DNA from: Bacteroidales bacterium
Lineage (GTDB): Bacteria; Bacteroidota; Bacteroidia; Bacteroidales; UBA4181
Length of the DNA: 64,000 nucleotides
Direction: 5' to 3'
Assembly (NCBI GenBank): GCA_031275285.1
Contig: JAISOY010000089.1
Span: 1-64,000, forward strand
In this document: positions 13,351 through 27,128 of the stretch, one piece after another
Numbering within the stretch: the first letter of the stretch is position 1
How the letters are laid out: each line of letters starts with the position of its first letter
The notes under the pieces: generated by a model
Told to the model about the DNA's origin: nothing
The model's database searches: none
Seen by the model: the letters and a program-made list of their open reading frames with translations, nothing else
Position numbers and translations under genes: made by a program

Positions 13351-13375
13351 TATAGAAGAAAAAGTTAATTAAAAA

Positions 13376-13457
13376 ACAATTAATGTTATACTTTCTGAAC
13401 GCAATTAACTTGATCAATGCGACTTAAGAAAACAATAAATAGCAATGAGTGCTTAAT
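13376..13457 (+). repeat. Dispersed intergenic repeat, copy R1
   Basis: About 82 bp, beginning ACAATTAATG and ending GAGTGCTTAATT. It shares with the four other copies the core GACTTAAG followed by an A-rich AATAAATA tract and TGAGTGCTTA. It fills most of the gap between the lipoprotein gene and the convergent engB, and its last bases overlap the engB stop codon (13453-13455). Confidence 0.85.
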
Positions 13458-21034: not shown

Positions 21035-21280
21035 TACGTATGTCCCAATGTTTACCTGTAAAGTCCGCGAAGCGGGCAAATATAAATAACCGCGGGTGTA
21101 ACCCGTGGCAGGAATATAGTAACGTCCTCGCGTCCCCGAAAGGGGGCGAATATCGCATTTACGCCATTCGCCCCCTTTCGGGGACGCGATTGCCGGCTGT
21201 TGCCTTTTTCCGTGAGTTACACTCACGGTTATTCTTATTCAGTCCCTTCGGGACATTGGGCAAATATCGGGACATGCGTA
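21035..21280. repeat. Hairpin island I bounded by 12-bp inverted repeats
   Basis: This stretch between gph and the GT4 gene holds no convincing gene but is dense in inverted repeats. The ends are TACGTATGTCCC (21035-21046) and GGGACATGCGTA (21269-21280), inverted with one mismatch. Inside are a short-loop hairpin at 21065-21075, another at 21090-21108, a perfect 23-bp inverted repeat (21129-21151 with 21166-21188, 14-bp loop), a perfect 8-bp stem with loop TAC (21210-21228) and a 5-bp stem with loop TTC (21242-21254). It abuts dispersed repeat copy R2. It resembles REP/MITE-type palindromic elements. Confidence 0.75.
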
Positions 21281-21282
21281 AA

Positions 21283-21365
21283 ACAATTAATGTTGTACTT
21301 TCCGAACGTAATCCATTTTATCAATGCGACTTAAGGAAACAATAAATATCACTGAGTGCTTAATT
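21283..21365 (+). repeat. Dispersed intergenic repeat, copy R2
   Basis: About 83 bp, beginning ACAATTAATG and ending GAGTGCTTAATT, closely similar to R1 throughout. It lies immediately after hairpin island I and ends about 22 bp before the start codon of the GT4 glycosyltransferase. Confidence 0.85.
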
Positions 21366-26688: not shown

Positions 26689-26716
26689 GCCACTACGAAG
26701 TTTTTTTAATAATTAC

Positions 26717-27044
26717 CTGATGTTACGCAGAGATTAGGTTTTTATTCAAAAAATAAGCGTTTCGCCATGAAATGGCAGATTATTTTAACCCAATGGCTTC
26801 AGCCTTGGGAAATGAAAACGAATTCGGACAAAGCGGGCTGCAAGCCCAGGTTAATTAGCTAACCTGGGCTTGCAGCCCGAAGAATCAAAAATGATCAAAA
26901 TCCCGAGGCGTTGCCGTCGGGCTAAATTAAAACGGACTTACAGTCCTTGATATATTGATGTTTGAAAGCAATATTATCAAAATCACTCCTATGCGTAATG
27001 TTCTTGCTGATAAATAACCCAAACGGATTATTACGTAACATCAG
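26717..27044. repeat. Hairpin island II bounded by 11-bp perfect inverted repeats
   Basis: The 476-bp gap between hisG and the MltF-like gene has no convincing gene. CTGATGTTACG (26717-26727) and its exact complement (27034-27044) frame a row of hairpins. These are GCCAT-GAA-ATGGC at 26764-26776, an imperfect CCCAA...TTGGG stem around 26789-26809, a perfect 20-bp inverted repeat (arms 26834-26853 and 26860-26879, 6-bp centre), an imperfect CCCGA...TCGGG stem around 26902-26921, and GGACT-TAC-AGTCC around 26933-26945. The design matches island I. Confidence 0.75.
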
Positions 27045-27080
27045 TTATTACTTATTTACATAAGTAATCAGAATCATATT

Positions 27081-27128
27081 AAAACAAATCCCTTCTTCAA
27101 AAATAGCGTTGAAGAAGGGATTTGTTTT
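27081..27128. terminator. Strong bidirectional hairpin terminator
   Basis: A 20-bp perfect stem (27081-27100 with 27109-27128) and 8-nt loop, with AAAA on the left and T-rich sequence on the right, so it can serve either strand. It would stop read-through from the hisG side and back up the terminator of the MltF-like gene. Confidence 0.85.

Follow-up and report, generated by a model that had tools for sequence, protein, structure and literature searches.

What is the hairpin-rich DNA that separates hisG from mltF in this Bacteroidales genome, and how did it come to lie there? In the window, i.e. the whole stretch of 64,000 nt analysed here, an earlier note had delimited a 328-bp element at positions 26717-27044 by perfect 11-bp inverted ends. 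These boundaries hold: exact matches to CTGATGTTACG are confined in the window to 26717-26727 and, as the complement, to 27034-27044, matches with two mismatches occur there at the level expected by chance, and further copies in the genome break off at the same positions. Taken over 13 bp, the terminal inverted repeats (TIRs) read CTGATGTTACGCA on the plus strand (26717-26729) and CTGATGTTACGTA on the minus strand (27032-27044). The short-loop hairpins and the perfect 20-bp inverted repeat described previously were found as well. The inverted repeat (26834-26879) has its arms at 26834-26853 and 26860-26879 around a 6-nt loop, and four further short-loop hairpins accompany it on the plus strand: GCCAT-GAA-ATGGC (26764-26776), CCCAATGGC-TTCA-GCCTTGGG (26789-26809), CCCGAGGC-GTT-GCCGTCGGG (26902-26921) and GGACT-TAC-AGTCC (26934-26946). 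The element is without coding capacity, in agreement with the claim that no open reading frame fits; the longest one touching it encodes 39 amino acids. It is flanked by TAATTAC (26710-26716) and TTATTAC (27045-27051), two heptanucleotides that are identical at six of seven positions and represent the target-site duplication. Just beyond the element, between the convergent genes hisG and mltF, another perfect 20-bp inverted repeat followed by a T run (27081-27128) is likely a bidirectional terminator.

A search of the whole assembly yielded five copies including the one in the window, the other four being ~92-94% identical to it. They are located at C211:5398-5725 (C211a), C211:17111-17438 (C211b), C63:14671-15003 and, truncated at the 3' end, C69:27330-27604. 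Similarity among the copies stops at the TIRs and the flanking sequences differ. Exact 7-bp direct repeats border the C63 copy (ATAATTA) and the C211b copy (ATACTAA) on both sides, and the flanks of C211a, ATACAAA and ATACTGA, agree at five of seven positions. Because the two C211 copies are both contained in one duplicated segment of ~650 bp, they represent a single insertion event; hence there are four independent loci, with perfect duplications at two of them. The sharp ends and the target-site duplications bear out the view that this is a discrete element. The duplicated segment on contig C211 (L089 5171-5813 and 16881-17525) has other repeats around it. Joining the flanks of the C211 copies and searching them in the same genome returned no empty copy, and searches of 41 and of 393 related genomes recovered the hairpin module but not the whole element. 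Among seven relatives in the genus with a hisG match, mltF was recognisable downstream of hisG in none. A second TIR-like pair, on contig C165, was dropped, as it resembles ordinary gene sequence.

Folded as single-stranded DNA, the element is far more stable than shuffled versions of itself (z = -8.7). Together with its position between hisG and the terminator-like repeat, this strong fold could speak for a structured RNA or a 3' regulatory element of hisG that is maintained by the host and merely present in several places. In the long palindrome, two base pairs are changed on both sides among the copies, i.e. compensated, and one is broken; with five copies only, such compensation is suggestive at best, and selection accounts for it no better than template-switch repair. 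In the short hairpins, five of the six varying pairs are broken in one copy. Moreover, the other copies lie in unrelated flanking sequence, one of them is truncated, and an Rfam scan of the window returned nothing at the gathering score. We therefore hold a host-maintained hisG element to be highly improbable.

The hairpins themselves have counterparts elsewhere. The hairpin CCCGAGGCGTTGCCGTCGGG and its neighbour adjoin a gene for a Y1 transposase at C219:16547-16891, one of several Y1 transposases in this genome, and in two genomes from another family (G287 and G099) similar modules adjoin proteins 68-74% identical to this transposase, a RAYT. The hairpin at 26902-26921 is a REP module common to such RAYT flanks, and modules similar to the hairpin at 26789-26809 occur in the multi-hairpin REP clusters of two further genomes (G061 and G015). 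Since the modules match those beside Y1/RAYT genes both here and in distant genera, the interior of the element is REP-type DNA carried inside a miniature inverted-repeat transposable element (MITE).

This kinship invites another account, namely that a RAYT (Y1) transposase directly spread a cluster of the REP/BIME type and that the framing inverted repeat is incidental. The adjacency to RAYT genes in this and other genera and the presence of several Y1 transposases in the genome are in its favour. However, the copies end at the TIRs and not at the hairpins, these ends enclose unrelated interiors in many phyla (see below), and 7-bp target duplications are present. Y1 transposases are not known to produce target duplications. 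Direct spread by a RAYT is thus largely refuted by the duplications, and we consider it very unlikely.

An enzyme that would recognise the ends of such a MITE was suggested by a query combining target-site variants with the TIR, which matched one plasmid record, pCHL69-1 of Cyanobacterium sp. HL-69. There, the TIR is situated ~45 bp ahead of a gene annotated as 'group ISAba11 transposase'. The HL-69 element measures 1,108 bp and has perfect 13-bp ends, CTGATGTTACGCA...TGCGTAACATCAG, which are identical to the ends of the element at hisG; its own duplication is imperfect (TTATTAA/TTACTCA). Its transposase belongs to NCBIfam NF049921 of the IS701 family (344 bits; cut-off 250). Among relatives at 40-49% identity, a related insertion sequence (IS) of Moraxella osloensis has the ends CTGAAGTTACGCA and the exact duplication TTACTAA, one of Piscirickettsia has the ends CTCACCTTACGCA and the exact duplication TTATTAA, and one of Piscirickettsia MR5 has the ends CTCATGTTACGCA. 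The more distant ISAba11 ends in TAGGACTTACGCA, and its duplications are 5 bp long (PMC7885321). In the transposase alignment D69, D165 and E274 are invariant, consistent with a predicted DDE triad. Identical ends in the HL-69 IS, and nearly identical ends with matching duplications in its relatives, make the NF049921-type subgroup of IS701 (ISAba11 group) the likely mobiliser. The IS701 transposase gene is absent from the non-coding 328 bp, and the element is a derivative of such a transposon and not a member of the group. In its own genome, ends allowing up to one mismatch each were nowhere found paired at a spacing of ~1.1 kb, nor was a transposase-bearing copy with these ends found at the loci taken from two MITE-rich Bacteroidota genomes.

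The mobiliser might instead have come from a different IS family that selects similar targets, e.g. the ISPepr1 subgroup of IS4, for which 7-8-bp repeats, CT ends and AT-rich targets have been described (PMC2266710). The complete Y-R-E-K spacing present in the HL-69, Moraxella and Piscirickettsia transposases would fit such an assignment. Yet ISPepr1 is 1.5-1.6 kb long with ends YT-AA-YTT---A (PMC2266710), a consensus from which the ends considered here deviate by two mismatches, and the identical-ended element is 1.1 kb long and scores as IS701. An ISPepr1-like mobiliser is therefore unlikely.

We then asked how widely the frame occurs, scanning ~85,000 species genomes (one genome per species) with the pattern CTGATGTTRYGCA-N(289-319)-CGTAACATCAG, which imposes the length range of the elements recovered. 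The scan returned 76 framed stretches, compared with ~0.1 expected by chance according to our own calculation. The hosts include Methylobacter and other Methylococcales, Beggiatoaceae, Acinetobacter, Saprospiraceae, Pontibacter, a Prevotella bin, Calditrichaceae, Chloroflexi and others. Exact duplications flank 46 of the 76 elements (34 of 7 bp and 12 of 8 bp) with the consensus TTA-N-TAA or TTA-NN-TAA; when left and right flanks from different elements were paired as a control, the rate was 1.5%. In 18 of the genomes with such elements, 1-139 exact TIRs were counted per genome (0-1 for the reversed control), and the spacing of TIR pairs in the sampled genomes ranges from ~92 to 962 bp. Matches to TAA plus the TIR in viral contigs were mostly due to chance and were set aside. 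The TAACTGA repeats of Beggiatoaceae (PMC4679880) have the same junction letters, but no link to them was found, and a literature search for the TIR sequence gave no match.

Within this frame, the sequences of the interiors are for the most part unrelated. Clustering them gave 30 groups of up to 39 members each, and the element in the window stands alone in its own. The median z-score of the fold is -6.8 for the elements and -0.3 for 300-nt pieces from the same loci, and values below -3 were obtained for 65 of 77 elements versus 5 of 76 control pieces; as the control pieces are mostly coding, this contrast may partly reflect intergenic DNA in general. In the Prevotella bin (G406 contigs; L254, L258-L260), same-ended elements are mosaics of recurrent hairpin blocks in varied order. 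The earlier note had taken the locus to exemplify a class of elements built from hairpin modules and not a single repeated sequence. The shared frame with differing, hairpin-rich interiors in 76 elements largely supports such a class, and the interiors are indeed mostly unrelated across phyla; within its own genome, however, the element is a repeated sequence with five copies. A correction concerns the parts themselves: the frame has the ends of an IS701-family insertion sequence, and the hairpins are REP modules of a RAYT.

Taken together, we consider the element, with a probability of roughly 0.87, a non-autonomous DNA transposon (MITE) that carries a REP-hairpin cluster and was mobilised in trans by an IS701-family DDE transposase (ISAba11-like, NF049921). 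The ends, copies, duplications, end identity with a transposase-bearing IS and hairpin modules common to RAYT flanks are observed; the actual enzyme that moved it and the manner in which the REP cargo was captured are inferred. An NF049921-type transposase would act in trans on CTGATGTTACGCA ends, target TTA-N(1-2)-TAA and duplicate 7-8 bp upon insertion. At the locus studied here, its target would have been TTATTAC-like DNA lying past the hisG stop codon and ahead of the terminator-like repeat. REP hairpins originally belonging to a Y1 (RAYT) transposase would then now travel as cargo inside a DDE transposon and not be spread by the RAYT.

Comparison with known systems places the element among MITEs, an ordinary kind, yet one put together in an unusual way: it combines IS701-type ends with RAYT-type cargo, and its relatives across phyla are equally hairpin-rich but unrelated in their interiors. 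The ends of the HL-69 member of the ISAba11-group IS701 elements are identical to its own, and relatives have near-identical ends with 7-bp TTA-N-TAA duplications, but the element lacks a transposase gene and has 328 bp compared with 1.1 kb; ISAba11 itself differs in its TAGGACTTACGCA ends and 5-bp duplications (PMC7885321). Like MITEAba12 (PMC6382973) and QMITE2 (PMC10969869), it is short and non-coding, with terminal repeats, target duplications and mobilisation in trans, and QMITE2 also contains REP and has 7-9-bp repeats. Unlike these two, its interior is a multi-hairpin REP cluster, its parent family is IS701-like and its ends frame many unrelated interiors across phyla. With REP/RAYT (REPtron) clusters (PMC2817692, PMC3733652) it has in common the hairpin modules that flank a Y1 transposase gene, whereas its signals of mobility are DDE-type terminal repeats and duplications instead of REP hairpins.

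In the literature searched, no description of MITEs of the IS701/ISAba11 kind was found. One frame with unrelated, hairpin-rich interiors across phyla suggests a common route by which DDE transposons acquire and spread REP repeats. It is possible, at odds somewhat below even, that CTGATGTTACGCA-ended MITEs form a cross-phylum class which has only the 13-bp ends in common and systematically fills with palindromic DNA (REP hairpins, fold-back copies). Either the transposase or excision would favour hairpin cargo, or hairpin arrays would be captured between two ends; a DDE system would thereby disperse RAYT repeats. Intergenic hairpin islands of this type may be explained as mobile cargo, and CTGATGTTACGCA together with TTA-N-TAA offers a simple end signature for annotation. 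As to function, the data support self-spread alone.

The class proposed earlier had also embraced a first hairpin island upstream in the window (21036-21279). The two islands are alike in construction. They are not one family, because the first has its own imperfect 21-bp inverted ends ACGYATGTCCCRATRTTTRCC, matching at 17 of 21 positions, and is bordered on either side by an exact 8-bp direct repeat, AAAACAAT. The hairpins around a RAYT gene at C140:6076-6417 are similar to those of this first island, which is probably a second element with different ends. An intergenic repeat of ~95 bp, TAAGTAATATAAAACAATTAATG...GCACTGAGTGCTTAA, with a small palindrome at its end, is dispersed over ~35-40 places in the genome; in the window, it is found at 21280-21362 and 13373-13423.
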